From: Salinarchaeum sp. IM2453
GTDB taxonomy: Archaea > Halobacteriota > Halobacteria > Halobacteriales > Salinarchaeaceae
Length of the DNA stretch: 64,000 bases
NCBI RefSeq assembly: GCF_019693215.1
Contig: NZ_CP081183.1
Span: 1,429,226-1,493,225, forward strand
Direction: 5' to 3'
In this document: positions 18,793-64,000 of the stretch, in pieces
Layout of the letters: each line of letters begins with the position of its first letter
Position numbering within the stretch: the first letter of the stretch is position 1
Made by a program: the position numbers and the translations under genes
Notes under the pieces: generated by a model
Seen by the model: the letters and a program-made list of their open reading frames with translations, nothing else
Databases searched by the model: none
What the model was told of the DNA's origin: nothing

Positions 18793-19045
18793 CGTATTTT
18801 CCTAATGTCTTATCTGGTAAGAAAGAGTCGGTATTATTCTCGCTTTCCTTAGTGACAATTGGGCTTCTCTGTTCACAGAAAATCAAAGCGGATGCCACAT
18901 GATTTGCTCTCGAGGCTGTTGGCGCATAGGTCAGCTAATCATCGTGAAGTGGGCTGTCTATATGTTTGTTAGGTCAGCGTTTGAATACCGCTGGTGCGTA
19001 ACGCTAACCGTTATTGCTATTAAAGTGAGCCAGCCAACATAATGT

Positions 19046-19633: not shown

Positions 19634-19661
19634 ACTACTCCGTCAAACGTTTTTTCTGCCC

Positions 19662-47927: not shown

Positions 47928-48254
47928 GCTGTTGTTGGTAAATAGGACTTACCCCACATATGACTTTCGTATTATCTAAAAATCTATCTTCGTTGTTGAA
48001 AAATCGTTTTCGTGATCGATAAAAAATATATGCGATTTAGATGGGATATAATTATATATTCTTTATAAAATCTTTATACTAACAGACTATTGCCGTTTAT
48101 AGCTTAGTGATCGGTCTGCCATTGTCTCGCATATGTTTATTTAATACCTTGATCTTCCGCACACTAAAATATCAGCACTGAGGAGATTTAGTTGCTTTAT
48201 CGAACTCATGACTCACCGGTTGGGCGGTCAGAAATTTTATGCTAAGCCATCAAC
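47928..48254. other. AT-rich intergenic region upstream of sufC and beyond polB
   Basis: No gene is seen. The region 47960-48080 is very AT-rich with several TATA-like runs (for example AATTATATATTC near 48050) that could serve sufC or an antisense transcript. The polB 3' end enters at 48255. Confidence 0.45.
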
Positions 48255-51200
48255 TCACATAAACTGTCCAAGCCCTGTCTGCTCTTGGCCACTCTTGACT
48301 TCCTGCCATGATATCTCAAGTGCTTCAAGAATACGTTCAATTGGCCCTTTTAAGGTTTTGTCCAGCATTTTTTCCCAGTCAATTTCGAACTCTTCGGGAA
48401 GTTGATCAGCATACTCAAAGCAGATTACATCTGGATTCTGCTTGAATTCTCTGTATATCTCATTTTCTTGTGGATCAAAACCATGTTCTTGTTCCATTCG
48501 CTGGAAGAACTCAGCGTGAACGCCCTCTAAGTATATTCGTTTTGGCTTGCTCCCTCGTCCAAAGTTCGTTCCGAGTAACTCGTTTGCGTACCGAGCTCCT
48601 CGCACTTGTGCCGTATCTGTATCGTAGCTATCTAACCGCTTTCCGATACCACCTGGAATTGCAATTTCTTCAGGATCGACCTTTCCTCCTTGGAAGTCAT
48701 CGATTACCGAGTGTACGTATGACTTTACTTCGTCAATATCTTCGCCTTTAACAATCATATCAATGACTTCGAGCTGAACTTCTTTTGTGATTGATGCGAT
48801 GTCTGACCGCTGGTACTCGAAGCCGGTGATATCGATATCATCAACATCCTTTCCTTCTTTCCAAATGATATGTCCGGCATACCGTTTCTTTTTGCCTGCT
48901 TGGAAGAAGCGCCGATATAGCTTTTCAAACTCTATTTGGAACCGATGTGCGTGTGCGTTAAGCTCCTCTTTTGCAAATATATCGTATGACTTGTTGATGT
49001 GCTTTTCAATATCAAACGATCTCTCAATTGCTTTTTCTTTCTCTACGTTCTCACCAAGCTCTAGCATCACACTATCTGTGTTGTGCAGTACAATCCCTCC
49101 GACACCATCGACGAAATTATTATTTTTCTTCACCTCCAGATCATACACTTCTGTTAGCTCTGTCGTTTCTCGCGTTTCTAGCGTCGGTGTTGCTTCCTTT
49201 ATTCGTGACCTTCCGATGACAATCCGGTAACGGTCGGATTCAGTATCTTGATCGTACGTGTGATCAATATTGTTAGCAATGAGTAGGTATGATACTCCGG
49301 CTGCGCAGACTTGACTTGTAGTCTCAAACACTCGTCCCGTAAGTGACGACTTCGATTCTGTAGCCTTGTTTGCTGTATCTGTTACTAGCTTAAGAAATCG
49401 TTTTTGCTGTTTTACTGGTGCGTTAAGTATGAACGACGGTACTTGTTTTTCTGTCTCATCTTCAAATAGTTTCGCACATAGTATTTTGGCATCTCTGTCG
49501 TCGATAACAATATCGTTCTCGACCTTCTGCGTGTTCTGTTTTCCAAAGAGCAGCTCACAGTCTTGGTGTAGTTGTGACCGTACCTCTGTTGGCACGTCTT
49601 CAAACGTTACTGTCGTCGTATTAGCAACTGAACCACATCTGATATACAGTGCTGACACACGCGACAGCGCTGAACCTGCTTCTGTGTCCCAGTTGATCGT
49701 CTTTAGTATCTTCTTATCCTGTGGATTTCTGTCACCTATCTCGTTTCCAGAATTCCCTATTTGATCGTCTTTGTCTTTGAGTAATCTTTTCACATCAACC
49801 TCTGCTTGACTGTTGTCACCGCCTGGTGACGGAATTCGGACGGGAGCATCAACATCACTTGGAGCAGTCTGTGTGTATTTATCTCTGTCTTCAACGATAT
49901 ACGAGTGGTCAGGTGTCGTGACCGAACCTCCATATTCATCTCTTAACTCGACAATCGGCTTATCGGTCTCATGCTTGATGACCCGTTGAATCGGTTGCCA
50001 CTCTGCAGCTCCATCAGTTGTTAGTGACAGTGCCTCCCAGCCGTCAAGTGTCGATCGTTCTTTTCCAGCATGCTTTGTCTTACCTCCATCTGCTGACAGG
50101 ACTGCTTTTCTTTCTGAAGTCTGTGTTGCGATGTCGTACAGCTGACCGATCTGGATGATACGCACACGTTGATCTGGATCCCGAACGACAACTGGGCGGT
50201 CCTCGGTGACACTATCTCCATACACAACTTCATACCCTTCTTCATTGGCAACCGCTTCAGTATGGTTGATCACCTCTCGTCCAGTTGCCGTCACCGCAGC
50301 ACCCATCTCTTTGTCATACAGGCGGAAACGGTCCCAACCCAGTACACCATACAGTGACTGCCCTATCGGTTGGAATTGACCGTTTCGACCTGCTAACAGT
50401 GTGTGGTTGTCCTCAACAGTAACACAATAAACCCCGTTATCTGCTGTACTCTCTGTTACATCAGAATCTGCATCAAATGTTGCTTCACAATCTGTATGTC
50501 GTCTGACTATCCAGTGATTGTCGGCTGAATCATATGAAACGACATCCCCAACATGTGCACATAGCCGTAGTATGTCATCTCGGAGTTGTTTGCTTTCGAT
50601 GGTTACACGTTGCTCTGTTTGGTCTTTTTCCGTAGTGAATATTGTATCAATAAATTGTTGTTTTTGTGTCTCTGATCCGCTGTATACATACTCTGGGATT
50701 CGCCTTTCATTCTCTCTGTGACAGTGACTTCTGATATTCCGACTGACTCTGGGGTCCGTAATGTGTATCTCTCCTTCTTCGATTTTATACTCAGCAGTCA
50801 CCGCTTGCACCGACCCAGTGAGAGATGCAGGCGACGACATCTCAATGACTATGTGATCCTTCTTATCTTCATTTGTCTTTGTTCTCCCATAAATGAGATA
50901 TTGAGCCAATACATTCAACCAGTCATTTGTAGTAATTTGACCAGTTGCGGCTTCCTGTGGATATGATGTAGTAACGACTCCTCCGTCTGTAACCTCTTTT
51001 TTGATACCGTTATTCAACTGTGATAGATCTGTATCTTGAATCTGGTCAGGAAGCTGATCTTCATGTTCAATCTGCCAATCTGTTGGTATCTCGTATACCT
51101 GCTGGTCATCGAGATTCCCTGCTTTTGTAAATGTTATATCTGGATTTGCAGTCTCTGCGTTCGGCTCCTGTATAAGCATTCGGTGATTTGACGTCACCCG

Positions 51201-53147
51201 GAAATCAATTGTGTCCGTCTGGATATCAAGTAATTTTCCGCGATATTCTGGATATGCATGCGTCTTAATGACGGGCTTTGTTTCCAGTGTTTTTGTATCT
51301 GGATCAAGTGAGTATACCTCTTCTCCTACCTTAAGATCACGAATATTTTGTATACCATTTGGAGTTAGTACCTCCGTATCTGGCGTGAAGCAGTTCATAA
51401 TCACCTTTACAGCTGCCTGCTGTCGGTCAAACCGCTCGTAGTCCTCTGTCTCAGGGTCGAATTCGTTTCGTTGTTCTTTTTTTGCCTCTCGTTCGTTCAA
51501 CAGTTCGTCGACCATCTCTCGGATGATCCCGTCAGGTTCTTTTCTGAAATGAGTATCATTTGGTGCGATGTATGTATCCTCGCCATATTCCTCAGGATTC
51601 ACCTTTGTTTCTGGCGATGCGTTAATTGTTACCATGCACATCGGGTACAGCGATTTTAAGTCCAGCACACTAACATTTTCTCTAACTCCAGTAATCGGAT
51701 CAAATACTGCTCCCCCCTCGTAGTCTTCTCCGCTATGTTGTCCTTTTGACGGTAGTGCAAAATCCCCGTGTACCTTCTGTAGAACGTAAATATCAACGGC
51801 GTCACCCGGCGTTGTCGCGTCTTCCAACCGACAGCCAACGAAGGACTTGACTTCATTCCAGAATGGGATGATATCTTGGGTTCGATTTAATTCTACACAG
51901 AGCTCAACGTCACGAAGATTATATTCCAGCAGTCGCTCCGGATTTTCTTCCCAAAGGTCCCCAAGGTCTCCTTGGTACCGTTCTTTACCGACGCCCAGCT
52001 CACGTTCACCAACGTCATCTAGCCGGTAAGAATCGAGCTCAGTAAACTTCGTTCGCTGGTATGCATACAGAAGATCAAATACAACGCGTCCTTTGACATC
52101 TGGACCGCCCCAATCCGAACGCCAGACTTCATTTACCCGAGATAGTCGATCAATATCTAAATCATAGTTGGTTCTGTCGTTCAATTCTTCCAGTCTGTCA
52201 AGCAGATACGGTGCGTCAAAATCAGTAAAGTTCCAGCCACTCAGTATATCCACATCTTTTTGCTCAATATATTGAATAACTTCATCAAGCATCTCCTCTT
52301 CCGTCTCATACGACTTGATCTTGATTTCCGTGTCGTCCTGTAGTGGTTGATAGTCAGAGAGTGTGTTTCCAACTTCTTCTATTTCTGTGTCTGGCTTGTA
52401 CAGCCACCCAATGTATTCATCATCGTATGAATCATGAGTTGTCAAACATATAATCGGTTCTTCACCGTCCTCAGGGAATCCGTGCCGATCATCTACCTCT
52501 ATATCTAAAAAGCAAACCCGGGGATCAACGTTGACTGTCGTTGCTGCTACTTCACTGTGGTGAACTATGATTGTACTATCGTCGTCTCGCCGTTTAGGAA
52601 CAGCAATTCCATCGTTGAGTCCCTTATCAATAAGAAAACGATCTGGAAATAGTATATCTGCTTCATAGTGTTCAAAGTCATCTCGAATTCTGCCGACATC
52701 ACGTGGGGTTCGCGTATAAATACGCACGAGCTCGTTCTCACGAATGCTCTGATAAGGCTCCTCATCTTCATCAGTTTCTTCCCAGTCTACGATTGCATCG
52801 TAGTTCAACAGATCTGACTTGTCAACGCTATCCGCTGGAGCGTAAAAGTATGGCTGAAATCCGCGTATTTGAATGTGCTCGGCTGTCCCGTCACCCGTTC
52901 GTCCAAATACGTGAATGATTGGCCGTTCATTTTCTCCCGTTCCTTCGATTGTATAATCTACCTGCGTGATCGATATGGCAATTGTCCCATCTGCTGCTGG
53001 TAGTGAATAGCGCTCCGGATCAATTACCTGTTCAACATTATCCTCATCTGCGACCGCCTTTGCCTCGGCTTTGATTTGATCCGTGTCAGACGCTGAAGAA
53101 CCATTAGTGTCAAAGTCCCCAAGTGACTGCTGTCCCGGGTCAGTCAT
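48255..53147 (-). CDS. polB: Family B DNA polymerase with two inteins
   Basis: The precursor is 1630 aa; removing two inteins (345 and 378 aa) leaves about 907 aa, normal for haloarchaeal PolB. Exonuclease motifs: CFLDIEVDD (about residue 208), SGWNFTDFDAPYL (about 293) and YNLRDVELCVEL (about 410). Polymerase motif A is DLKSLYPMCMVTINASPET (about 490). Motif B KVIMN/SLYG is split by intein 1, and motif C YGD/TDS is split by intein 2. ATG at 53147 (MTDPGQQSLGDF) is preferred because the residues upstream look unrelated. It follows flpA by 58 bases on the same strand. The enzyme is a main replicative candidate, with PCNA also encoded here. Confidence 0.96.
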   Translation of the reverse strand: MTDPGQQSLGDFDTNGSSASDTDQIKAEAKAVADEDNVEQVIDPERYSLPAADGTIAISITQVDYTIEGTGENERPIIHVFGRTGDGTAEHIQIRGFQPYFYAPADSVDKSDLLNYDAIVDWEETDEDEEPYQSIRENELVRIYTRTPRDVGRIRDDFEHYEADILFPDRFLIDKGLNDGIAVPKRRDDDSTIIVHHSEVAATTVNVDPRVCFLDIEVDDRHGFPEDGEEPIICLTTHDSYDDEYIGWLYKPDTEIEEVGNTLSDYQPLQDDTEIKIKSYETEEEMLDEVIQYIEQKDVDILSGWNFTDFDAPYLLDRLEELNDRTNYDLDIDRLSRVNEVWRSDWGGPDVKGRVVFDLLYAYQRTKFTELDSYRLDDVGERELGVGKERYQGDLGDLWEENPERLLEYNLRDVELCVELNRTQDIIPFWNEVKSFVGCRLEDATTPGDAVDIYVLQKVHGDFALPSKGQHSGEDYEGGAVFDPITGVRENVSVLDLKSLYPMCMVTINASPETKVNPEEYGEDTYIAPNDTHFRKEPDGIIREMVDELLNEREAKKEQRNEFDPETEDYERFDRQQAAVKVIMNCFTPDTEVLTPNGIQNIRDLKVGEEVYSLDPDTKTLETKPVIKTHAYPEYRGKLLDIQTDTIDFRVTSNHRMLIQEPNAETANPDITFTKAGNLDDQQVYEIPTDWQIEHEDQLPDQIQDTDLSQLNNGIKKEVTDGGVVTTSYPQEAATGQITTNDWLNVLAQYLIYGRTKTNEDKKDHIVIEMSSPASLTGSVQAVTAEYKIEEGEIHITDPRVSRNIRSHCHRENERRIPEYVYSGSETQKQQFIDTIFTTEKDQTEQRVTIESKQLRDDILRLCAHVGDVVSYDSADNHWIVRRHTDCEATFDADSDVTESTADNGVYCVTVEDNHTLLAGRNGQFQPIGQSLYGVLGWDRFRLYDKEMGAAVTATGREVINHTEAVANEEGYEVVYGDSVTEDRPVVVRDPDQRVRIIQIGQLYDIATQTSERKAVLSADGGKTKHAGKERSTLDGWEALSLTTDGAAEWQPIQRVIKHETDKPIVELRDEYGGSVTTPDHSYIVEDRDKYTQTAPSDVDAPVRIPSPGGDNSQAEVDVKRLLKDKDDQIGNSGNEIGDRNPQDKKILKTINWDTEAGSALSRVSALYIRCGSVANTTTVTFEDVPTEVRSQLHQDCELLFGKQNTQKVENDIVIDDRDAKILCAKLFEDETEKQVPSFILNAPVKQQKRFLKLVTDTANKATESKSSLTGRVFETTSQVCAAGVSYLLIANNIDHTYDQDTESDRYRIVIGRSRIKEATPTLETRETTELTEVYDLEVKKNNNFVDGVGGIVLHNTDSVMLELGENVEKEKAIERSFDIEKHINKSYDIFAKEELNAHAHRFQIEFEKLYRRFFQAGKKKRYAGHIIWKEGKDVDDIDITGFEYQRSDIASITKEVQLEVIDMIVKGEDIDEVKSYVHSVIDDFQGGKVDPEEIAIPGGIGKRLDSYDTDTAQVRGARYANELLGTNFGRGSKPKRIYLEGVHAEFFQRMEQEHGFDPQENEIYREFKQNPDVICFEYADQLPEEFEIDWEKMLDKTLKGPIERILEALEISWQEVKSGQEQTGLGQFM
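49080..50213 (-). other. PolB intein 2, in motif C (378 aa)
   Basis: Inserted between Asp and Thr of YGD-TDS, the catalytic aspartate motif. It begins with Ser (SVTEDRPVVVRDPDQ), has block B GGSVTTPDHSYIV, a central region with a degenerate LAGLIDADG-like stretch (ALSRVSALYIRCGSV), block F VYDLEVKKNNNFVDG and a canonical end GGIVLHN before extein Thr. Acidic residues expected in active homing motifs are missing, so the nuclease is probably dead while splicing residues look intact. Confidence 0.92.
50358..51392 (-). other. PolB intein 1, in motif B (345 aa)
   Basis: Inserted between Asn and Ser of KVIMN-SLYG. It begins CFTPDTEVLTPNGIQNIRDL (block A), has block B FRVTSNHRMLI with the T-x-x-H motif, a central region with weak traces of a LAGLIDADG endonuclease (LNVLAQYLIYGR and QFIDTIFTTEKD), and block F VYCVTVEDNHTLLAG. 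The C-terminus is GQFQPIGQ before extein Ser: Gln instead of the common Asn, and Gly instead of the penultimate His. Boundaries follow from reconstructing the polymerase motif. Confidence 0.92.
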
Positions 53148-53205
53148 GACTGCTCTGTAGGTGCTCCTGTAGTGAAAAACCTCCTCATTGTGCTTTTGCT
53201 CCACC

Positions 53206-53835
53206 TTATTTTGGCGTTGCAATGACCGCTAAATGATCGCTATGATACGGCTCAAGTCGCTGTGTTGACAAAATTTCGTATTCTTCTTCTAATTCTCGCT
53301 TAACAGATGCAAATACTGTCTCTGGATCACCGGTCACATCCTCACTTCGGGCCTTAACAGCAAGGATTAGTTGTCCGTTGTTTTTGAGGAATTTCCGATT
53401 TTCATTAGCAACCTGTGCCTGCCCGCGGGTTGCGACATCCTGTATGATTGTATCGAGGTTTGCCTCAACAATATGAGAGTATGTGTCCGGCTTTCGTGCA
53501 TCTTTAAGCAATGGAAAGACGTTTGATCGCGTTTCTGCGACATCTACAAGATCCTTCGCTGGCCGTGGGGAAAACTCGATAGCGTACACCGGTCCAGCGA
53601 AATCAGCAACATGGCTTACCGTTGTTCCATTAGCTGCGCCCAGATATAGCACAGTATCATCGCCTGCTATCCCCGTATCAACTCCTTTCTCAAACATTGC
53701 TCCAAGCTTTGATCTATGTGGATTCCACTGTCTCCATCCATCGATAACTGGTTCACCATATACAGCCGATCCTTGTGTTGATAATGCCATTTCGCCTCCA
53801 AAATCACGGTACTGAACGCCTTCTGGTAGTGTCAT
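53206..53835 (-). CDS. flpA: Fibrillarin-like rRNA/tRNA 2'-O-methyltransferase
   Basis: A 209-aa fibrillarin: AVYGEPVIDGWRQWNPHRSKLGAMFEKGV near the start, SAM-binding VLYLGAANGTTVSHVADFAGPVYAIEFSPRP (about residues 63-95), and VEANLDTIIQDVATRGQAQVANENRKFLKNNGQLILAVKA. It is the catalytic subunit of C/D box sRNPs, with Nop5 and L7Ae. It overlaps the nop5 stop by one base (TGATG), so the two are coupled. Typical length. Confidence 0.96.
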   Translation of the reverse strand: MTLPEGVQYRDFGGEMALSTQGSAVYGEPVIDGWRQWNPHRSKLGAMFEKGVDTGIAGDDTVLYLGAANGTTVSHVADFAGPVYAIEFSPRPAKDLVDVAETRSNVFPLLKDARKPDTYSHIVEANLDTIIQDVATRGQAQVANENRKFLKNNGQLILAVKARSEDVTGDPETVFASVKRELEEEYEILSTQRLEPYHSDHLAVIATPK

Positions 53836-54671
53836 CAGTGATCACCCCGATTCTGAATTGTCTGAATTCGATCCAGTAACTCAGCTTCTAATTCTGGTCG
53901 ATATTCTCCGGAATAGTGGTCAACTCGCGCTGCAATCGATAACTTTCCGGCAAACGCGCGTGCTGCTGATCCTCGCTCCTGCTGTGGAGTCTCTCTCACA
54001 TACTCATGTGTAAATATAACTCCATGCTTTGGAGATGGAGCGTTACCACGAAGATGCGCGAACAGAGCATCCTCTGCCCCGAGAACCTGCACAGTACTTG
54101 ATGGCATCTTTGCCAAATCTTCAAGGCCCCCAGCCAGCGCAATCAGCCTTGCTGCAAGCACTGGGTCTGACAGTGCTGATAAATTCGGTGCAACTGTTGG
54201 TGCTTGCTGGTTGATATAATCCTGTAGTTGATCTGCTTGATCAAGTAAGTCAACTCCTCTGTTTGCTAAACTGATTACCTGTGTCTCTGTTTCATTTTCT
54301 GGTTCTCGTTTCGCTACTGTTCGTAAGTACTCCTCACTGGTTCCTGTTTCCTCATACAGACTTCCAGCCCATTCTGATACTCGCTCTATAATTTCATTTC
54401 CTTGTGACAAGCAGTCGTCCATCGCTCGAACTGCATGAATCAGTTGTTGATCACTCGATTGCTCTTGTTCTTTGATTGTTTTTCTTGCTGCTTCAATCGT
54501 AGCCTTCTGCAGCCATTCATAATATTCTGATTTGGATGTTACTTCTGTTTCCTCTATGGCTTTCTCCGGCCATTCTGCTGGCTCCGAGGCGGACCCTGCC
54601 AGAATTCCCTGTACTGCTATGGTAATCTTGTCTGGATTGGACCCTACGTACCAGCCCTCTTCACTACTCAT
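53835..54671 (-). CDS. nop5: Nop5/Nop56 C/D box sRNP core protein
   Basis: About 278 aa. The Nop domain is clear: NLSALSDPVLAARLIALAGGLEDLAKMPSSTVQVLGAEDALFAHLRGNAPSPKHGVIFTHEYVRETPQQERGSAARAFAGKLSIAARVDHYSG (about residues 150-250). The N-terminal fibrillarin-binding part is short and the coiled-coil middle is present. It is smaller than eukaryal Nop56, as usual in archaea. The ATG at 54671 or 54695 is possible. It pairs with flpA to form the methylation complex. Confidence 0.93.
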   Translation of the reverse strand: MSSEEGWYVGSNPDKITIAVQGILAGSASEPAEWPEKAIEETEVTSKSEYYEWLQKATIEAARKTIKEQEQSSDQQLIHAVRAMDDCLSQGNEIIERVSEWAGSLYEETGTSEEYLRTVAKREPENETETQVISLANRGVDLLDQADQLQDYINQQAPTVAPNLSALSDPVLAARLIALAGGLEDLAKMPSSTVQVLGAEDALFAHLRGNAPSPKHGVIFTHEYVRETPQQERGSAARAFAGKLSIAARVDHYSGEYRPELEAELLDRIQTIQNRGDH

Positions 54672-54753
54672 GTTTATCTCTTGTACGTCGCTCATCAAAA
54701 CTTGCTTGCACCGATGCCGACGTGTTCTTGTGTGGTGGGCTCCTATTATATGT

Positions 54754-55107
54754 ATGATACTTGTTCAAGGTACTGTCGATGATACCACATTGACAGGTAC
54801 CATCTTTGAACCAGGTGAATCTCCCCCACAATACCCTGGATCCCCAGATACTGGAAGCCCGTATGTATGGGTCTGTGACTCATTTTATCAGGTCAGTAGT
54901 GGCGGTCAGACACAACAAATCGCTGGTGAATCCATTCAAGTTGCATTTGACCCACCACAGCCAAAAGGATTTGAAACAGAGGAGGCAGCAATTACGGCTG
55001 CCGAAGAGCACCTCCGTACCCAATTTGCGCGTGTCGGGGTGGATCGTTCAGACGTTGACATCTCAACTCGCGATCCACAAGAAGCGGAGTCGACACCGAA
55101 TATCTAG
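54754..55107 (+). CDS. Conserved haloarchaeal protein (DUF7113-like)
   Basis: A 117-aa protein: MILVQGTVDDTTLTGTIFEPGESPPQYPGSPDTGSPYVWVCDSFYQVSSGGQTQQIAGESIQVAFDPPQPKGFETEEAAITAAEEHLRTQFARVG. It looks like a beta-rich domain followed by one helix. A known haloarchaeal type without function, as far as I can tell. It is divergent from nop5 and its TAG stop overlaps the nurA stop in the palindrome CTAG (55104-55107). Confidence 0.77.
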   Translation: MILVQGTVDDTTLTGTIFEPGESPPQYPGSPDTGSPYVWVCDSFYQVSSGGQTQQIAGESIQVAFDPPQPKGFETEEAAITAAEEHLRTQFARVGVDRSDVDISTRDPQEAESTPNI

Positions 55108-56408
55108 TACAGCTCGTTCCACCGGTGGCTGTCATAGTCCTTGTGCTGCTCTGTGTTGAACTTAATTTCAAACTCTGACTGCAAGGCAGCTGTCTCGTCT
55201 TTGCTGATTCTGGCGAGTTCATCAGCCTTAGCAACTGCCTCCGGCGGCCCTTGTTGTGTTGCGACTTCTTTAAGAATCCATTTGGTCAGTTGCTCTCGTC
55301 GCTCCGGGTCCTTTGTAATACCATATGGCGATTCAATCCGATATAGAAGGTCGCTTCTTGGCTCGTACAACACAAAGAACGTTACTTCATAGTCCTCTGG
55401 GTCAAGCGTCCGTTCAAGATCGAACAATGACGCGTCCGCGGACACATACCTGTCTGCACCGCCTCTGGATCGGAACCAGTTCGTATATGTAAGATGTTCC
55501 TCATCTCTGACTCGCTTTCTCTGCACATCGCCATTTTCATCTCTGTTGTACTCATAACCTACTTTCTCCAATATTTTCTTGAAAAATGCTGTATCGTTTA
55601 CCCAGGGCGTTTGGGGCGTACTCTCTTGTCTCTCCAATGTCCTTGTCAATGCCTGCGTTGATGGATTTTTTACAAACCCCAGCAATGGAATCTCGTTGGA
55701 CACAAAATGATTGACAAGCCCGATGTAGTTCTTGATTATATCACGTGGATTCCCTTTTACATCTCGTGTATCTCCTTCATCGTACAGTAGCTCACGGAGT
55801 TCCGGATGGTCTGCCCAGTTTAGAATACCTTTTGGATAGATCGGACCATCGAGAACAAGTAATCCATCTATCTGATTGATGTGTGACAATGCATGCTTGC
55901 TTTCAGAGAGATGCAGTGCGATATCGTGTACAACGCTTTCCTCAAACCGCTCTACTGAAGGTGCTGGTAACAAGATGTTTTGCGTGTTTCCCTCATCGAG
56001 CTTCTCTGTTTTCTCACTAATACCCACAGGAGTAGTTGAATGAACTGTCGTTGTTATCGTACGTTTTCGATGCAAATCAAGTTCTGTTGGAACGGCCGCC
56101 ATTGCTGCTTGTGCAACATCAAGCACAATTCCGTTCTTAAATGATGTTGGATTGATTGTTCCTGAATCCAGTCCATAGCTACGCTCAAAGATCGTCTCTT
56201 GTAGCGCAGCCTCCTCAATTTTAACCTCCCGTAGGTACTGTCCTTCCAGCGGAGATAGAATTTTTTCTCCCTCTTGGTTATACAACGGATTTAGAAAGTC
56301 ATTCCATACCGTACCGGCGATGTTTCGATGCTCGCTTTCATCTACCTCTGATTTGATCCGGCGAGCGTGCTTTGTAATCCCCTCCATATGAACCGGATCA
56401 AGTACCAT
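55104..56408 (-). CDS. nurA: NurA-domain 5'-3' nuclease
   Basis: A 434-aa NurA protein. The RNase H-like catalytic Asp lies in SYGLDSGTINPTSFKNGIVLDVAQAAMA (about residues 78-105) and a second acidic site in IDGLLVLDGPIYPKGIL (about 180). The C-terminal part contains RFLYE-type features VTFFVLYEPRSDLLYRIESPYGI and ends HRWNELY. NurA works with the HerA translocase to resect DNA ends; herA is not in this window. It lies 167 bases downstream of the Cas5-like gene on the same strand. It looks like the ordinary haloarchaeal copy, but cotranscription is possible. Confidence 0.88.
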   Translation of the reverse strand: MVLDPVHMEGITKHARRIKSEVDESEHRNIAGTVWNDFLNPLYNQEGEKILSPLEGQYLREVKIEEAALQETIFERSYGLDSGTINPTSFKNGIVLDVAQAAMAAVPTELDLHRKRTITTTVHSTTPVGISEKTEKLDEGNTQNILLPAPSVERFEESVVHDIALHLSESKHALSHINQIDGLLVLDGPIYPKGILNWADHPELRELLYDEGDTRDVKGNPRDIIKNYIGLVNHFVSNEIPLLGFVKNPSTQALTRTLERQESTPQTPWVNDTAFFKKILEKVGYEYNRDENGDVQRKRVRDEEHLTYTNWFRSRGGADRYVSADASLFDLERTLDPEDYEVTFFVLYEPRSDLLYRIESPYGITKDPERREQLTKWILKEVATQQGPPEAVAKADELARISKDETAALQSEFEIKFNTEQHKDYDSHRWNELY

Positions 56409-56575
56409 ACCTAACCTTTCTATCTGAACTCTGAAAAAGTCCTCGTAGCAAATCCCCAGCTCGTATTCTCATCCCGCTTTATCAGTTGTTGCAAATACGA
56501 TTTCTTTATTCAGAATTCCCGCTGGAATAATCTCGGCAAATTCAGCGGTATTTGAGGATCTGTGCATTGGTCAAT

Positions 56576-57487
56576 CTACCCGTTTCTATCCATTTCTTGA
56601 CACTGGTTGTGAAGCGGTTTCACTCGCAATTCACCGAAGCCATATCGGGAGTGTGAGCCGACCCGAGTGAGGCCGTTCTTCGCAGTCTCGATTGGACGAT
56701 CACCGAGGTACTTCACGACCTGTCTGTGGTCCACCGTCTCCAGTCGGAACACCTCACGCTGTTCGAGGATCTTCTCTTCGCGGAACCGGAGATCATCGCG
56801 GTTCTCGGCCCACCACCACGGAACGGGCTGATCGTTGGCTTCTGGATACTCCGATTTCAGCACGAATGGTGTTACGAGTTCGATCAGGTACGTGTCCGCA
56901 CCGTCAAGCCGCGAGTACTCCAGTTCGTCGAGGTCCACCATCTGCGTGTCCTTCAGATGGACCTCGCCGTAGCCGTAGTTGCGCTTGCCGCCGAACTGGA
57001 GTCCATCAAGCACACCCTCGCCGAGCGGGAGAATCGCCGGGTCATCGGTGTGTAGGTAGGCGTGAACGTACCACTTCGTCGTCTGTTGTTGCTTCCGTTG
57101 ATCCTCCCGGCGGCCCATGATCGTCTCGTGAGCGATCGTCGGGTGGCCGCCGTGGATACGGAGATCGTGCGTATTCAGTGCGTCACGAGCGCGGGTATCC
57201 AGCAGCCACGGATGCATTGCCTCCCGCTGGAGGAACAGATCATCGTAACTCTCCACATCAGGCAGCCCACTTCCGAGGTACGGTCGGATACCACTCTGCG
57301 AGTGTTCTTCGGGGAACGTCCCGAACTGTCCCGGCACGAACACACCGTGACTAGCGGACACTGCTGCGTGTGTCTCTGGCTCCAGATGCTGGCCGAGGGC
57401 GTGCAGGATAGCGTTCCCCGACACGTAGTACGGGTGGCCGATGTAGTCCATCCGCAGTTCCCACAGGACTTGCTGAATCTGCGTCAT
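56576..57487 (-). CDS. Diverged Cas5-like RAMP protein of an HRAMP-type operon
   Basis: A 303-aa protein with two glycine-rich loops typical of RAMP/Cas5/Cas6 ferredoxin-like folds: GLQFGGKRNYGYGEVHL (about residues 162-178) and TRVGSHSRYGFGELRVKPL (about 277-295). The start region MTQIQQVLWELRMDYIGHPYYVSGNAI has the strand-helix expected of such a fold. It is the last gene of a tight operon with a Cas7-like protein. The start at 57487 overlaps the upstream stop (ATGA); an in-frame ATG at 57502 is less likely. Codons are GC-richer than its neighbours. In HRAMP this would be the Cas5 homologue (inference; I compared from memory). Confidence 0.75.
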   Translation of the reverse strand: MTQIQQVLWELRMDYIGHPYYVSGNAILHALGQHLEPETHAAVSASHGVFVPGQFGTFPEEHSQSGIRPYLGSGLPDVESYDDLFLQREAMHPWLLDTRARDALNTHDLRIHGGHPTIAHETIMGRREDQRKQQQTTKWYVHAYLHTDDPAILPLGEGVLDGLQFGGKRNYGYGEVHLKDTQMVDLDELEYSRLDGADTYLIELVTPFVLKSEYPEANDQPVPWWWAENRDDLRFREEKILEQREVFRLETVDHRQVVKYLGDRPIETAKNGLTRVGSHSRYGFGELRVKPLHNQCQEMDRNG

Positions 57488-58224
57488 CTGTCTGGCCTCC
57501 ACTCGGTAAAATCCTCGATGTACTGAAGGGCGTTACTCCAAGACTGAATCCGCCGCAGGTTCGCATCGAGGGTCATGTCGTACTTGTCGCTATCAGTGTC
57601 CAGTGGGTGTGCAGTGAGTCGGTTCCAGGCCGACGCCCACGACCGCCACGGGCGACTCCCGAGGCGTGCTGATGGACGATCGCCGGCCTCGATGTCGATC
57701 CGAAGCGTGAAGCGGTCGCCGTCGAAGACAGTCCGGAACGGGACAGCCTCACCCGCCGGATCGACGATCAACCGCAACTCCTCGAAGTCGTTGCCTCGGT
57801 TGTAGTTGTCCAGCAGCGCCGCCACGAGCAGTGTGTGGTACTTTAGACTCGTGTACGGATGATACACCGATTCGTTGAATGCGGCGGCCACGTCGCTCGT
57901 GAGCCACTGTTCGTGTGTCGCCTGTGCGTCCTCGATGCCGATCAAATCCGCCACCTCGCTCTCGATGGTCGCCCGTGAGAACTCGCCAGGATCGTAGGCT
58001 GTCTCGCCGGTCAGTAGCGAGAGTCGGTAGTGATCATCGTGCGTCGGGATCGTCTGCTCTTGCGTCTGTTGTGGTCGAGAGAGTGCAGCTGCATCGCCGT
58101 CTGCACCCTCGGGTACCGACTGGTTCACTAGAACGCCAGCGAACTCGTCGCGGGCGTCCTCGTGACTCTCGCCGGTGAACTTGTGGGCATCGTGCCGGAA
58201 GGCGGTGAGCATCACGTCACTCAT
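57484..58224 (-). CDS. Uncharacterised HRAMP-associated protein
   Basis: A 246-aa acidic protein between the Cas7-like and Cas5-like genes, with ATGA overlaps on both sides (57484-57487 and 58221-58224). I recognise no domain. It has a long helical middle (SDVAAAFNESVYHPYTSLKYHTLLVAALLDNYNRG), then strands LRLIVDPAGEAVPFRTVFDGDRFTLRID and a C-terminal region DSDKYDMTLDANLRRIQSWSNALQYIEDFTEWRPDR. The order fits the third conserved gene described for HRAMP systems. It could be a Cas8- or Cas11-like subunit; that is untested. Confidence 0.75.
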   Translation of the reverse strand: MSDVMLTAFRHDAHKFTGESHEDARDEFAGVLVNQSVPEGADGDAAALSRPQQTQEQTIPTHDDHYRLSLLTGETAYDPGEFSRATIESEVADLIGIEDAQATHEQWLTSDVAAAFNESVYHPYTSLKYHTLLVAALLDNYNRGNDFEELRLIVDPAGEAVPFRTVFDGDRFTLRIDIEAGDRPSARLGSRPWRSWASAWNRLTAHPLDTDSDKYDMTLDANLRRIQSWSNALQYIEDFTEWRPDR

Positions 58225-59084
58225 ACATCCTCCACACGCTCGGCGAGCGCAGTCTGGAACTCCGGTAGGTACTCCGCTTCCCACTGGTCGTCCTTCTCGT
58301 CCATCTTCTGTGTGTCGTCTTTGCCTCGGTCGAACACACGGCGGAGTTCGTGTTCCTCGTAGAGCGGATTCACGAGGTCGCAGTCCACGATACCACCACC
58401 GAAGTTCCGGGCACCACCGAGTTGGTGCATGAAGTCGGTCTTGTGGGCATCGAGGAAGTCGATAGCTTCGGCGAGCAGCGCGACGAACTCGGGCTTGGTC
58501 TCCCGAAAGGAGAGGTGCCAGCAGCCGTCGAGGTTGCCGACGGCGTCCAGTTCGGCGTTTCTGAGTGGTTCTCGGTTGTCTTCCTCATTCCGGGAGACGA
58601 CGTTTCGGTTGATTCGCCGGTAGTGACCTTCCGCCTGTCCGCGCGTGTAGTCCACGCTGGAGCGGACAGGCGAGAACTGGATCGGGCGACGCATCACCTT
58701 CCCGGGCCGGTTCCCGAACCCACCGAAGAGGTCCAGAATCACGCAGCCGTTGTCGTCATCATCGTCGAGACACGCGCCCTTCTCGTGGTAGCCAGCGTCA
58801 AGGTCACGGTTGTAGACGCCGTCCTTGCGGAAGTTCGCGTTGGCCTCTCCAGGGTGACAGGCAGTCCCGCCGCGTTCCTGGACGACCTTTTCCATCCCGT
58901 GACGGAGCCACCCGGAGAGGCTGAAGGCCGGGATGATGCCGCCAATCTGATTCTGCGGGTCGTTGTCCTCGTAGTTTCCATTCGAGGCATGGTGTCTGTC
59001 CGTCATGATCGAATCGCCGATGACCAGCAGGTCCGTCTGGATTCGCACGAACACGTCGCAGTTGATATTTTCTACTGTCATCAT
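58221..59084 (-). CDS. Diverged Cas7-like RAMP protein of an HRAMP-type operon
   Basis: A 287-aa protein with Cas7/RAMP hallmarks: the early strand DVFVRIQTDLLVIGDS, IIPAFSLSGWLRHGMEKVVQE (about residues 48-70, equivalent to the conserved P-x-S-S-x-x-G-x-x-R helix of Cas7), a Cys- and Asp-rich stretch, the turn ILDLFGGFGNRP (about 118), and the glycine-rich HQLGGARNFGGGIVDCDLVNPL (about 220). This is the expected backbone subunit that would coat a guide RNA. Start at 59084 or 59081. It follows the Tat-signal gene by 7 bases and overlaps the next gene (ATGA). No CRISPR array is in the window. Confidence 0.8.
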   Translation of the reverse strand: MMTVENINCDVFVRIQTDLLVIGDSIMTDRHHASNGNYEDNDPQNQIGGIIPAFSLSGWLRHGMEKVVQERGGTACHPGEANANFRKDGVYNRDLDAGYHEKGACLDDDDDNGCVILDLFGGFGNRPGKVMRRPIQFSPVRSSVDYTRGQAEGHYRRINRNVVSRNEEDNREPLRNAELDAVGNLDGCWHLSFRETKPEFVALLAEAIDFLDAHKTDFMHQLGGARNFGGGIVDCDLVNPLYEEHELRRVFDRGKDDTQKMDEKDDQWEAEYLPEFQTALAERVEDV

Positions 59085-59091
59085 TCACCCG

Positions 59092-59562
59092 CTATTGCTG
59101 TTCCTCCGTTTCACCAGCTGCCACGTCCGCTGCTGCGTTGAGCCGGCGCGCATTGTCTCGAGCATCTTCTGGTGAGAGAATCTGTTTCAGCGAGAGTCGT
59201 GGCTCGCTACTGCCGGTGTAGATGTCCATTTGGACGCTATGCTCGTCGGTATCTTCGGCTCTGTAGCCCTCGATCCGAACTCCACCCTCCTCGGGAATGG
59301 CGAACATCTCAGCAACAGGGCTAGGAGTGGTGACACTCCCACAATCCGCACGGACGCAATCCATCCCTCGTGAGATGTCTGGTTCGAGCTGGGTTGCTGC
59401 AGCACCGTTCGCTGCCCCAGTGAGTCCCGCAAGTGCCGCAGCAGCACCGAGGAACTTGCGCCGCGAAAATCCCCCATCAGTGAGTGCTTGCGTCGTGGTT
59501 GAGCCGTTCGATTCCTCTCTCGTGACGGAGCGTTCAAGTCCGTCGCGGTCTGATTTCTTCAT
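59092..59562 (-). CDS. Tat-signal protein at the head of the RAMP operon
   Basis: A 156-aa protein. The N-terminus has GGFSRRKFLGAAAALAGLTGAANGAAA (about residues 32-58), a twin-arginine signal: S-R-R-K-F-L followed by a hydrophobic stretch and an AXA cleavage site; no lipobox Cys. The mature part (about 98 residues) is acidic, with two cysteines in MDCVRADCGSV and no domain I recognise. ATG at 59562 is chosen; the frame continues upstream into a hairpin region. It is 7 bases from the Cas7-like gene. Why an exported protein precedes cytoplasmic RAMP proteins is unclear; it may be a separate gene in the same transcript. Confidence 0.72.
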   Translation of the reverse strand: MKKSDRDGLERSVTREESNGSTTTQALTDGGFSRRKFLGAAAALAGLTGAANGAAATQLEPDISRGMDCVRADCGSVTTPSPVAEMFAIPEEGGVRIEGYRAEDTDEHSVQMDIYTGSSEPRLSLKQILSPEDARDNARRLNAAADVAAGETEEQQ

Positions 59563-59587
59563 GGGTTTCTGCTGCCCAGAAGCCCGG

Positions 59588-59609
59588 CCCGCCTGTTCCA
59601 GCAGGCGGG
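59588..59609 (-). repeat. Perfect hairpin upstream of the RAMP operon
   Basis: Stem CCCGCCTG and its partner CAGGCGGG, eight pairs, loop TTCCAG. It sits 26 bases before the start codon of the Tat-signal gene, inside a GC-rich stretch that begins the island. Its surroundings (AAGCCCGG before, TGTTTCC after) resemble ends of IS605-type elements; it could instead be an mRNA leader structure controlling the operon. Confidence 0.6.
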
Positions 59610-59671
59610 TGTTTCCTATATCAGGCCACACCCCGAGGGGGCGGACTTCCTCACCATCTCCTATACTTTGT

Positions 59672-59713
59672 AATGGTAAAAGCCTTTCCATCACCTATAA
59701 AGGAAATGGTTAA
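59672..59713. promoter_or_regulatory. Candidate operator between the winged-helix gene and the RAMP operon
   Basis: AATGGTAAA at 59672-59680 is repeated as AATGGTTAA at 59705-59713 (33 bases apart, about three helical turns). Between them TTTCC (59685-59689) and GGAAA (59702-59706) form a short inverted repeat around a TATA-like CCTATAAAG. Site identity is inferred only from repetition and position. Confidence 0.4.
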
Positions 59714-59743
59714 GTGGATAGAAACCCATCACTTACATAGGCG

Positions 59744-59998
59744 ATGATCACCAAGGAAGATGATGTGCCGGGAAAAGAACGTGATGAGAAATCTGGCAAG
59801 TACACAGCTAGTTACACAGATTCCGATTTTCTGAACGCAATTAGATCTCTAGATGGAATGGCTGGTACGTCCGAGATCGCTGATGAGGTTGGTTGCACCC
59901 GGCGAACGGCATACACGCGCCTCAAATCCCTTGAAGAAAGGGGATGTGCTGAAAGCCGCCAAGTCGGGAACTCCTTGGTGTGGATCACTACTGAATAA
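59744..59998 (+). CDS. Small winged-helix DNA-binding protein
   Basis: An 84-aa protein with a complete winged helix: YTDSDFLNAIRSLDGMAGTSEIADEVGCTRRTAYTRLKSLEERGCAESRQVGNSLVWITTE (about residues 24-84). It is divergent from the Tat-signal/RAMP operon with about 180 bases between start codons. Two copies of AATGGTWAA (59672-59680 and 59705-59713) lie in that gap and could be operators. It is probably a local regulator of the operon (inference). It converges with cca, 24 bases apart. Confidence 0.82.
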   Translation: MITKEDDVPGKERDEKSGKYTASYTDSDFLNAIRSLDGMAGTSEIADEVGCTRRTAYTRLKSLEERGCAESRQVGNSLVWITTE

Positions 59999-60022
59999 AG
60001 AAAACCGTATTTGCAACAACTG

Positions 60023-61381
60023 TTATGGGGACGGCGAAAAATACTCCGCCAGTGCCGCCTCGAACTCTGGAAGCAGTGACTGTATCTCGTTATTTATTTT
60101 AATTTCATAGTTCTGCTCCAGTATGTCTTTGATTCTTGTTCCATGATGAACGTTGAGCAACTGCTGTGAATCGCACCACTCTTTTGCCGTCTGGATTGAT
60201 CGCTGTCTTTCGATTACGTATCGTCCGTCTTCAATGAACGGTCCATAAACCGTGCCATCGTCCCGGTATTTATTATAGAAGTCCTCCGCATGTTCCTTGA
60301 TATGGACCGGAGGGCCATCATGTCGCTGAATTGCGGCGCGCTTTTCGACATCGACTTCAACAAGAATCAGCGTCTGATCCTCACTAACTGCAATATCTGA
60401 CCGAAGCACGTCAAATCCATTTCGGGTGAGGCCTTCAGTAATTCCCTGCTTGGATGTTCGTAACTGCGGGTACAGATCGTCCTCAATAAGGTCCGGCGTC
60501 TCAAATACAAGCGCGAGCAACGTTGTGTCTCGATTGGCAAGTTCCTCATTTAGCTCCGTCTTACTGATTGACTGTTTTGCTGATGATTCGAAGAATCCGA
60601 TCTCCGGGCTTCGAAGGAATTCGCGCGCATAATGCTGGAATCGGGCAAAATTGTTCTCTGACAGGACGGCCGCAACATTTCGTTCTGGGTCTGTTGGATC
60701 TATAACAACAAGTGGATCATCAAATGTCTCTTGTGCATGCCCTACAGGATCAATATGAACCTGTGGTTTCCACTCTGCTGCAGCTGAAAGTAATTTTTCA
60801 GCTGTCCTATATTCTAAAATTAGCAGTTCTAATATGTATCCACTGAATCCTCTGGTACGAAGATTGCTCCCATATAGTTCCTGTCCAGCACAGAATCCTT
60901 TGAGTAACCGCACTTCGGATGCTAGCGTCGGGTTTATATTCTCCTTAACATACTCGTTGTGGAATGGAGTTCGGTCTACTGCAGACTGGATATCTTTAGC
61001 TGAGTCGACTGCATAACAGGGGACAATATCAACATCAAACCCACTCCACTGCCCTGTCACATATGGGTGTTCGGCATATTTCTCTTGTCCTGATGGGAGA
61101 ACTTCATGGCCAACTTGTAATCCGTACTGTGCAAGCTCACTTCTATCCAGTTCCGGAGAAAACTTAATGAATAGATCAATATCCCGATCACCGGACAACC
61201 ACGTACCTCGTGCAGTTGATCCGACTCGAATTACCTCCGCATCAACCTGAAGATTAGACACTGCAGCCTGTGCCCGCTGTATCAGTTCTTCAGCACCTTC
61301 CTCAAGAGCCTCCCACTCCTCTGGCTCTGGATCAACAATCTCTCGAGCCTGATCAAGAACAGCCGCAACATCCTCAGTCAT
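60023..61381 (-). CDS. cca: CCA-adding tRNA nucleotidyltransferase, archaeal class I
   Basis: A 452-aa class I CCA enzyme. The nucleotidyltransferase motif is RVGSTARGTWLSGDRDIDLFIKF with both metal aspartates (about residues 52-74). The third acid is in SGFDVDIVPCYAV (about 112), followed by TRGFSGYILELLILEY (about 180) and the tail domains to FEAALAEYFSPSP. It builds or repairs the 3' CCA of tRNAs, consistent with both tRNA genes in this window lacking encoded CCA. It converges with the small winged-helix gene. Confidence 0.95.
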   Translation of the reverse strand: MTEDVAAVLDQAREIVDPEPEEWEALEEGAEELIQRAQAAVSNLQVDAEVIRVGSTARGTWLSGDRDIDLFIKFSPELDRSELAQYGLQVGHEVLPSGQEKYAEHPYVTGQWSGFDVDIVPCYAVDSAKDIQSAVDRTPFHNEYVKENINPTLASEVRLLKGFCAGQELYGSNLRTRGFSGYILELLILEYRTAEKLLSAAAEWKPQVHIDPVGHAQETFDDPLVVIDPTDPERNVAAVLSENNFARFQHYAREFLRSPEIGFFESSAKQSISKTELNEELANRDTTLLALVFETPDLIEDDLYPQLRTSKQGITEGLTRNGFDVLRSDIAVSEDQTLILVEVDVEKRAAIQRHDGPPVHIKEHAEDFYNKYRDDGTVYGPFIEDGRYVIERQRSIQTAKEWCDSQQLLNVHHGTRIKDILEQNYEIKINNEIQSLLPEFEAALAEYFSPSP

Positions 61382-61503
61382 TGCGTTATAGTTTTATCGG
61401 CGGTGGTGAAAGGATATCGGTTCTCATTGTGAAGAACCAGCAGACGTCTCACCGAAAAACGAAAGCCTAATCAAAGTAATCACCCTATGTTTTGATGCGA
61501 AAA

Positions 61504-61576
61504 GCCGCCATAGCTCAGCTGGTAGAGCACCACGCTGTTAACGTGGTTGTCCCAGGTTCGAGCCCTGGTGGTGGCG
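61504..61576 (+). tRNA. tRNA-Asn (GTT)
   Basis: Seventy-three bases. Acceptor GCCGCCA pairs with TGGTGGC (one G-U); the D arm is TAGCTCAGCTGGTAGAGCA; the anticodon loop is CTGTTAA with anticodon GTT; the T arm is CCAGG-TTCGAGC-CCTGG; the discriminator base is G. No CCA is encoded. It ends one base before the stop codon of the convergent HTH_10 gene. Confidence 0.97.
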
Positions 61577-61577
61577 C

Positions 61578-62228
61578 TCATTCTGCTCTTATTTCAGATA
61601 TCCCAAACAGATCGCCGTATATCTTCGATTGTGCTGCTGCCATATGTTCCGCTAATGTCGATGGACATATGTCCAGTTCTTCGGCAACCTCCGTAGCGTT
61701 TGCTTGTCGTGGATACTTGAAATATCCCATTTCATACGCCGTTTCAATCACTTCGCGTTGCCGCTGTGTTAATTCACCGCGGTTAATCGGGACAAACTCG
61801 CCTCCATGTTGGTCATCTGCGTCAGCTTGTGAAATTGTTTGAATGGAGACATCATCGTACTGCTGCTTTAGTCCCTTCAGTAGTGAACTCAACGCTGATC
61901 TATCTGCAAGGTGTAGCGTAACATAGAGATTTCCGTTCTCTGATCGTGCGTCAGAAATCGGGTATCCTTGTTCTTCAATTGTGCTACAGGGACATCCCTC
62001 TGTCTCCCGATTAAATTCATACACGCCGTCGTGGTTGTATTCAAACACTGGATCAACGATATCTGGGATCGTATTTTCTTTTGAACGAGTTGTAAACTGC
62101 TCTGTAACGTCATCTCCACTGTGTGTCCACGTGATTTCTGTTACCGATTCGCCTGCATTAGCCGTTGTTTCAGCGATTGGACATCCCTTTGGAGATCCAA
62201 TCTCAAGTTCCACGCGTAATCCACTCAT
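61578..62228 (-). CDS. Bat-like HTH-10 transcriptional regulator
   Basis: A 216-aa protein. The C-terminal HTH-10 domain typical of haloarchaeal Bat-family regulators is clear: LTQRQREVIETAYEMGYFKYPRQANATEVAEELDICPSTLAEHMAAAQSKIYGDLFG (about residues 152-210). The N-terminal part (MSGLRVELEIGSPKGCPIAE, and ETEGCPCSTIEEQGYPISD) is a sensor-like domain with cysteine clusters but without the PAS/GAF arrangement of full-length Bat. It is divergent from a Brp/Blh-like gene with repeated palindromic sites in the shared region, so it probably regulates that gene. Confidence 0.88.
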   Translation of the reverse strand: MSGLRVELEIGSPKGCPIAETTANAGESVTEITWTHSGDDVTEQFTTRSKENTIPDIVDPVFEYNHDGVYEFNRETEGCPCSTIEEQGYPISDARSENGNLYVTLHLADRSALSSLLKGLKQQYDDVSIQTISQADADDQHGGEFVPINRGELTQRQREVIETAYEMGYFKYPRQANATEVAEELDICPSTLAEHMAAAQSKIYGDLFGISEIRAE

Positions 62229-62415
62229 ATAATTATCTAATAACCCCCTATATGAAGGTCCTCCGGTTACAACACTTTTATCATGCTGTTTACCTCTACA
62301 TTATGATATCGTTAAACTTATTTGGACAATGCGTACACATCTGTTCATTTATTCACCTTTAAACCATACATGAACATTGATTCAACCAGTATCCTGTCCA
62401 TATACTTACCGAATG

Positions 62416-62427
62416 TCCTATATAGGA
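62416..62427. promoter_or_regulatory. Palindromic site upstream of the Brp-like gene
   Basis: TCCTATATAGGA is a perfect 12-base palindrome, 33 bases before the Brp-like start codon and it also reads as a TATA box. Related sequences CATATAGGGA (62444-62453) and CCCTATATG (about 62246-62254) flank the same intergenic region near both divergent genes. They are candidate sites for the Bat-like regulator. Confidence 0.5.
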
Positions 62428-62460
62428 TGCGTTGTATCATTCTCATATAGGGACAAAATT

Positions 62461-63567
62461 ATGAGTAGCAAGTTTGGTTACGCAGATAGTCAATCCCTAT
62501 TTTCCGTCCCGCGGGAGTGGCAGTTGCTCTTGCCCGCTTGGATCTCTTTCGCAGTGGTAACTGTGCTCGTCGGGGGCCTTCGGCTTGCGGGCATTTCGAT
62601 CCCGATGTCCATCCAGTTACTGGCGTATCTGATCGGGCTTGTTGCAATTAATCTCCCGCACGGAGGGTTTGAAAATCTGCAGAACCTTCGCACCAGGTCG
62701 GCTAGATTCCAAGCAATATACGCGGTTGTTTTTGTCGCGATGGTTGCTGGATTTATCGGGCTGTTGCTTTGGAATGCTGTTATTGGTGTCGCGTTAATGA
62801 TCGCAGTTGCTTGTGTTAAGGGAGGCTTTGGTGGCCTCGCCGTCCTTGATGCAGTGACTGGTACTGATCATATTCAGTCACGCTTCCAGCGATGGCTTGG
62901 CGCAGGCGTCCGTGGCGGTGCTGTGATGCTTGTGCCATATGTCGCATTCACTGAAACGTTTGAACAGTACACCGCATACATGGTTGATGTCTTCGACCCA
63001 GGTGCCCTTGCAGCAGCGACATGGGCATTTCATCCGATCACGTACAATTACGCTGTCCCAGCTGCAATTCTTCTCGGCGTAATTGCACACATCGGCCTAG
63101 GGTATGCGCGTGATCCTGGAACCAGAACATGGTTAGCAGATGCAATCGAAACGATCCTTTTAGTCGTTTACTTCTCGGTTGTACCTGTTGTCTTAGCTGT
63201 CGGACTGTACTTCCCACTCTGGTACTCTGCCCGTCAAGTTGCTCGATCGGCCGCTGTTGATGATGAACGACCAGTTGAGGAGGGTGCATGGATGTCAGAA
63301 GAATATCGTAGTGAGCATGTAGCATCTCTTCTGAACTGGAGTATGTTTATCGTTGGCGGTGTGTTTACTGGGCTGCTTCTTGCTGCCCTCTGGTACTTCG
63401 CTCCGGAGCCTATCATGGAAGTCGCGGCAGCGGACTATGCCAGTGACACAACTGCGTTACTTGCCGGAGGTGTTGTGTTCTACACCATCTTTGTGAGCAT
63501 TATTGCTCTCCCCCACGTCGTTGTTGGTGGATTCATTGATCGACAGGGCATTTGGTTTATTCCGTAG
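62461..63567 (+). CDS. Brp/Blh-like membrane protein (beta-carotene dioxygenase family)
   Basis: A 368-aa protein with about nine hydrophobic helices. Histidines that could form the iron site are in INLPHGGFENLQNL (about residue 62, where canonical Brp has an LPHGxxDH-type motif), ATWAFHPITYNY (about 192) and ALPHVVVGGFIDRQGIWF (about 350). Brp/Blh proteins cleave beta-carotene to retinal for opsins. The replacement of the canonical DH by FEN may mean altered activity, so carotenoid cleavage is likely but not certain. ATG at 62461 is used. No opsin gene is in this window. Confidence 0.8.
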   Translation: MSSKFGYADSQSLFSVPREWQLLLPAWISFAVVTVLVGGLRLAGISIPMSIQLLAYLIGLVAINLPHGGFENLQNLRTRSARFQAIYAVVFVAMVAGFIGLLLWNAVIGVALMIAVACVKGGFGGLAVLDAVTGTDHIQSRFQRWLGAGVRGGAVMLVPYVAFTETFEQYTAYMVDVFDPGALAAATWAFHPITYNYAVPAAILLGVIAHIGLGYARDPGTRTWLADAIETILLVVYFSVVPVVLAVGLYFPLWYSARQVARSAAVDDERPVEEGAWMSEEYRSEHVASLLNWSMFIVGGVFTGLLLAALWYFAPEPIMEVAAADYASDTTALLAGGVVFYTIFVSIIALPHVVVGGFIDRQGIWFIP

Positions 63568-63622
63568 TTAATTACAGTCTCTTTTCGTAGCAATTTTCCT
63601 TTCTCGCGACCCGTCTTTTTTT

Positions 63623-64000
63623 GTGCAGTTGTGGTCGTACAAGCGAACAGTCCTCGTCGCATGTACTTTAGCATTCTTCGCGACGATGGTCGCCCGTCTT
63701 TCAATCAGCCCGGTCGTACCCGAAATTAGCAGTGAATTTGACATTTCCACCGGCGTTATTGGATTCGCACTCTCTGCTATGTGGTTTACCTACGCTGCTT
63801 CACAGTTCCCAAGTGGTCTTCTCGGGGACAAGGTCGGGGAACGGATAGTCATTCTTATCGCGGTTGTTGGGACAGCAGCGACGAGCTTTCTTATTGTAAT
63901 TTCTCCATCATATTGGATGTTCTTTATTGCTGTTCTCCTCTTGGGTGCATTTGCCGGATTGCATTATAGTGTTGCGACAACCCTACTTGCAAAGACATTC
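63623..64000 (+). CDS. MFS transporter, N-terminal part (cut by window end)
   Basis: The first 126 residues of a major facilitator transporter. GTG at 63623 gives MQLWSYKRTVLVACTLAFFATMVARLSISPVVPEISSEFDIS (helix 1), GVIGFALSAMWFTYAASQFPSGLLGDKVGERIVIL with the MFS loop 2-3 motif G-x-x-x-D-x-x-G-x-R variant (about residues 50-85), then two more helices. The gene runs off the end of the window. The substrate is unknown. It lies 55 bases behind the Brp-like gene on the same strand. Confidence 0.88.
   Translation, partial: MQLWSYKRTVLVACTLAFFATMVARLSISPVVPEISSEFDISTGVIGFALSAMWFTYAASQFPSGLLGDKVGERIVILIAVVGTAATSFLIVISPSYWMFFIAVLLLGAFAGLHYSVATTLLAKTF

Follow-up and report, generated by a model that had tools for sequence, protein, structure and literature searches.

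What does a CRISPR-Cas-like operon serve that encodes neither an array nor a nuclease, and what carries it? The question is raised by a three-gene RAMP operon of the haloarchaeon Salinarchaeum sp. IM2453, located in a window of 64,000 nucleotides (contig NZ_CP081183.1, positions 1,429,226 to 1,493,225), to which all coordinates below refer unless another locus is named. We find that a transposable element, 56483-60022, carries this operon as its cargo; the element is non-autonomous and descends from a haloarchaeal DDE transposon. The element has inverted repeats of about 31 bp at both ends and is flanked by TTAT; its features are as follows.

56479-56482, no strand: left copy of the 4-bp target-site duplication TTAT, identical to 60023-60026
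56483-56513, plus strand: left terminal inverted repeat CAGTTGTTGCAAATACGATTTCTTTATTCAG
56576-57487, minus strand: Cas5-like RAMP protein, 303 aa, with a PADLOC Cmr3 match and a Csm4-like GGKRNxGYG loop
57484-58224, minus strand: middle protein, 246 aa, conserved, of no recognized family, kept in both HRAMP clades
58221-59084, minus strand: Cas7-like (Csm3-like) RAMP protein, 287 aa, with matches to Pfam RAMPs and PADLOC Csm3
59092-59562, minus strand: 156-aa protein with a Tat-like leader (TIGR01409 just under the cut-off), the operon's first gene, in a variable slot
59560-59659, minus strand: structured leader RNA with a three-way junction (model R1, 86.7 bits; covariation)
59744-59998, plus strand: predicted 84-aa DNA-binding protein of the winged-helix type, transcribed divergently from the operon (Pfam HTH families, under their cut-offs)
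59991-60022, minus strand: right terminal inverted repeat, 92% complementary to the left end
60023-60026, no strand: right copy of TTAT, overlapping the stop codon of a CCA-adding enzyme gene

The terminal repeats, the TTAT duplication, and the raised G+C content of the operon genes (0.59-0.61 versus 0.48 across the whole window) had been missed in the initial annotation, which ended the operon at 59562; the three genes do lie inside that range, but a fourth gene in the same direction, that of the 156-aa protein, starts at its end. Matching 4-bp NTAN duplications, in which the middle T and A are invariant, flank 16 elements of 3.5 to 10.9 kb, that is, the window element and 15 others. Some left ends were located with the help of the duplication itself; for the ten left ends found by sequence alone, the duplication is exact in eight cases, has one mismatch in L204, and does not match in L127. 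For the 4236-bp element of genome G032 (L135), three congeneric species carry the uninterrupted site with a single TTAT. A search for the corresponding empty site of the plasmid element of H. hubeiense found none. The inverted repeats, the NTAN duplications, and the empty site of the sister element L135 show that the element is mobile as one discrete unit.

Copies of the element ends are dispersed over the 2.66-Mb genome (G000), where the repeat pattern occurs 23 times and its reversed control not at all. The same genome contains four Cas7-like and 14 Cas5-like matches, mostly fragments, and several of the Cas5 C-terminal fragments adjoin a repeat. Among relatives, the end on the Cas5 side is called the right end; in the window, the Cas5-side repeat is that at 56483-56513. 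One locus (L020, G000:C1:264000-272000) is a 436-bp mini-element that consists only of both ends of the window element, and its right end is 100% identical to that of the window element over 163 bp, which indicates recent mobilization, although no intact transposase of the element's family was found in this genome. The genome keeps only a 186-residue transposase remnant, so the window element is non-autonomous; the right repeat of the window directly follows the winged-helix gene, at the place where complete elements have the transposase.

Homologs of the Cas7-like protein are present in 105 of 394 haloarchaeal genomes, and no relative was found in the viral contigs searched. The three genes lie where the initial annotation had placed them, all on the minus strand and joined by two ATGA overlaps (58221-58224 between the Cas7-like and middle genes, 57484-57487 between the middle and Cas5-like genes), and their association is more than chance: in the survey of gene neighborhoods that it proposed, covering about 60 loci of many haloarchaeal genera, nearly all loci have them side by side in the same order. 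The tree built from the three proteins separates clade A, with 48 loci (42 without duplicates) including the window, from clade B, with 14 loci, which is monophyletic with a support of 1.0. All three proteins have homologs at 43-62% identity in clade B, the middle protein at 43-52%. An HNH endonuclease and/or a DEDD-type exonuclease, the latter identified by sequence motif, is encoded in 14/14 loci of clade B. The inverted repeat of the element, with at most seven mismatches, is found about 70-100 bp past Cas5 in 40 of the 48 clade A loci versus 0/14 in clade B, where the best match has 16-17 mismatches in 31. The HNH and exonuclease genes were sought in the 48 clade A loci, and none has its own; the sole such match in a clade A neighborhood (L180) comes from a clade B copy next to it. 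The lack of these nucleases characterizes clade A as a whole, which is without HNH or exonuclease. Separately, we observed that L180, from Halosimplex pelagicum, contains HRAMPs of both clades about 5 kb apart (10001-12656 and 18071-20858).

The complete elements L124-L127, L132, L133, and L137 encode a DDE protein of about 600 aa on their left side, and in complete elements the winged-helix gene precedes that of the transposase, immediately so in L137 and L180. This transposase matches Pfam DDE_Tnp_1 (E = 6.7e-13) and NCBIfam ISH3 (5.2e-34), the latter with 118 bits against a cut-off of 225. It was found in 19 of the 394 genomes, and about 14 copies, among the places listed, lie no more than about 10 kb from a Cas7 of clade A. 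A 4.9-kb sister transposon on a plasmid of Halobacterium salinarum KBTZ01 (L211:21450-26366) shares the transposase type and the ends and has a matching duplication; it carries a metallophosphatase and no HRAMP, and its transposase has a 91% identical counterpart in L199, also from H. salinarum. Since this element retains the HRAMP leader sequence next to its right end, it probably arose by deletion.

Purifying selection maintains the three RAMP genes, even in copies that have lost the transposase. The ratio of nonsynonymous to synonymous substitution rates (dN/dS) is 0.06-0.16 in most pairs; between the window and L172, both transposase-less, it is 0.065, 0.093, and 0.123. The slot upstream of Cas7 varies, being occupied either by Tat-leader proteins, as in the window, L172 (where the homolog of the 156-aa protein in the same slot has 51% identity), and others, or by the C-terminal half of TnpB. 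This half, of about 220 aa, is present in eight clade A loci (L124, L127, L131, L135, L177, L178, L188, and L204), where its gene overlaps or directly precedes that of Cas7 (for instance, L124:8984-9646). It matches Pfam Cas12f1-like_TNB and OrfB_IS605, contains RuvC-like D, E, D motifs and a zinc ribbon, has a dN/dS of 0.14-0.29, and is possibly a swapped-in nuclease for HRAMP. The initial report of no obvious dedicated nuclease holds for the window element, which encodes none; in some sister elements, the TnpB-derived RuvC gene overlaps cas7. Further cargo in the elements includes a ParE/RHH pair, a TPR-AAA protein, DUF3644, and DUF4365. The NurA gene adjoining the operon (55104-56408) was considered as its nuclease and set aside, as it is outside the element.

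The leader RNA has a strong covariation signal, with 92.9% of cells paired versus 27-51% in slid versions, and 31 two-sided changes versus 12 in shuffles. It has an alternative, switch-like hairpin beside the AUG start codon, and no match to the motif was found in Rfam. The motif is present in 215 of the 394 genomes, where it precedes many genes other than those of HRAMP, and also in L180, L117, and L240; given this spread over unrelated genes, it is a general regulatory motif, and its candidacy as the HRAMP guide was ruled out. We also observed it upstream of SWIM zinc-finger-like genes, at times in several copies within 10 kb, and the proteins encoded downstream often start with a ...GQE motif. 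Palindromes are located between the winged-helix gene and the leader (59660-59740 in the window; also in L117, L112, and L173), and their sequence differs from element to element; they are likely operators of the winged-helix protein. As initially reported, the operon is without an array, Cas1/2, or Cas10, and a scan of 48000-64000 for direct repeats of the CRISPR kind found none. A match to Rfam CRISPR-DR23 at 58162-58212 (E = 0.28, far under the gathering score) is within a coding gene and was taken as chance.

What, then, could the operon do for the element? We lean towards a transposon-borne, nuclease-poor variant of HRAMP, most likely an RNA-guided complex that serves the element by binding, silencing, or interference. 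By analogy with type III and type IV complexes, the Cas7-like, Cas5-like, and middle proteins would assemble around an RNA, and the complex would work for the element and not for a CRISPR array of the host, binding a target nucleic acid and silencing rivals or helping to destroy them. In the sister elements with the RuvC gene, the Cas7-coupled TnpB-derived protein would supply cutting. The window copy encodes no nuclease, and so it may act by binding, through its own Cas7-like subunit, or together with trans-acting nucleases. The guides would likewise be RNAs supplied in trans; two cas1 loci are present elsewhere in the genome, so that such a supply is conceivable. The RAMP kinship is suggested by the Cas7-like protein, which matches PADLOC Csm3 (1.8e-6) and Pfam RAMPs (4.8e-4; 21.1 bits, just under the cut-off of 22.1), and by the Cas5-like protein, which matches PADLOC Cmr3 (1.6e-6), as do 29/29 aligned relatives (best 8e-9), and whose GGKRNxGYG loop aligns with Csm4 at a weak E of 0.18. 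The Cas7-type and Cas5/Cas6-type motifs pointed out initially are confirmed, and relatives keep the glycine-rich loops with little or no variation. Profile searches against PDB with all three proteins gave nothing significant. In the proposed check by structure prediction, with the AlphaFold2 model of the Cas7-like protein, the first seven PDB matches in Foldseek are Cas7 chains, from Csm and type IV complexes.

Several points weigh against this RNA-guided reading. The assembly and the RNA guidance of the complex are extrapolated from kinship with type III and type IV proteins. The Cas7 and Cas5 profile matches are individually weak, the RAMP assignment resting on several such signals that are mutually consistent, and the seven fold matches are weak as well (E 0.02-0.22), coming from a poor model (pLDDT 56, pTM 0.63). 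The middle protein, as the initial annotation had already said, belongs to no recognized family, with no match in Pfam, NCBIfam, PADLOC, or PDB, and its model is uninformative (pLDDT 52, no fold match). A role in target choice or in the control of transposition is a possible alternative.

In its strongest form, target choice would mean that the array-less type III-derived RAMP complex reads a guide RNA supplied in trans and steers the ISH3-like transposase to chosen sites, as a type III/HRAMP counterpart of the Tn7 CRISPR-associated transposons (CASTs). Such an archaeal RNA-guided transposition would agree with the module lying inside a transposon, with the loss of HNH and exonuclease as in CASTs, with the HRAMP genes adjoining the right end, and with a transposase found mostly with clade A HRAMP. 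Yet the insertion sites have only the TA of NTAN in common, and a search of the 150-bp flanks against the element for a guide matching its own insertion site gave no signal over the control. Moreover, transposase-less elements keep HRAMP under selection, the H. salinarum element with a transposase of the same family (91%) and no HRAMP is intact with its matching duplication, and no TniQ/TnsC-like gene was recognized in the inspected elements. We consider RNA-guided insertion unlikely, and the role of the complex as target selector similarly improbable. The prospects are slightly better, though still poor, for interference against RNA by a backbone of Cas7-like subunits that would do the cutting themselves, like Csm3, without need of a separate nuclease: the closest profiles are Csm3 and Cmr3, and acidic and histidine residues are conserved near the Cas7-like N terminus (for instance, D24, D29, H31, H32, and D42), but the low-confidence model gave no position for a catalytic Asp.

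The divergent winged-helix gene, the operator-like palindromes, and the structured leader point to tight control of the locus, as might be expected if the complex bound the element's own transcripts and limited transposition or copy number. This self-regulation is quite improbable, as leaders of this RNA family control a wide range of unrelated genes and HRAMP persists where no transposase remains. Finally, the operon might be a stand-alone chromosomal defense system of the kind seen in clade B, flanked by unrelated miniature inverted-repeat transposable elements. We give this almost no credence: it is contradicted by 40/48 loci, spread over many genera, in which Cas5 is followed at a constant distance by the same ends, by the matching duplications, and by the empty site, and for clade A it is refuted by the repeat positions and empty sites. 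The HRAMP kinship proposed in the initial annotation is upheld by the Csm3 and Cmr3 profiles and the homologs in the HNH-bearing clade; a stand-alone chromosomal framing is incorrect, the operon being transposon content.

How does the transposon-borne HRAMP compare with known systems? HRAMP has been described as array-less and nuclease-associated (PMC8730458, PMC12669027). The window system resembles it in being haloarchaeal and array-less, with a diverged Cas7, a diverged Cas5, and a conserved uncharacterized protein homologous to those of the HNH-bearing clade. It differs in having no associated nuclease (HNH, PD-(D/E)xK), with a RuvC substitute in eight loci, and in being enclosed by transposon ends, with a transposase in complete elements and dispersed, fragmentary copies in the genome. 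CASTs are listed only with Tn7-like, Mu-like, or telomeric transposons (PMC12669027). They (Tn7-like I-F3, I-B2, V-K, and others; Mu-like I-A; PMC12669027) likewise have effector genes, of class 1 or 2 in CASTs and of class 1 here, enclosed in a DDE transposon with a target duplication, and no interference nuclease, whereas the window family has an ISH3/IS4-like transposase in place of Tn7/Mu genes, no recognized TniQ/TnsC, type III-like Cas proteins, and no array; guided insertion is a CAST feature. The transposase of complete elements resembles ISH3, but it falls below the family cut-off, the element carries cargo, and the NTAN duplication is of 4 bp rather than the 5 bp listed for ISH3 (PMC10264941). 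Type IV systems also have a Cas7/Cas5 complex without Cas10 on mobile elements, and type IV Cas7 is among the weak fold matches, but the window system is without an array, DinG helicase, or recognized Csf1. Unlike type III systems, the window element has no Cas10 gene.

No literature linking HRAMP to a transposon was found in a search that did not cover the original HRAMP description, and we provisionally regard the link as new. About half of the sampled HRAMP diversity is transposon cargo that dropped HNH and exonuclease, sometimes replaced by the TnpB-derived RuvC. So far HRAMP has been read as a defense system with nucleases and no guides; the mobile form changes the question of its purpose, provides both a natural carrier and a delimited mobile unit whose ends are known, and makes the question of guides directly testable. 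It is also a case of type III-like CRISPR machinery taken up by transposons of a family that is not among the CASTs of the 2025 classification.

Elsewhere in the window, an open reading frame of 1655 aa on the minus strand (48255-53222) encodes a family B DNA polymerase with apparent intein interruptions.
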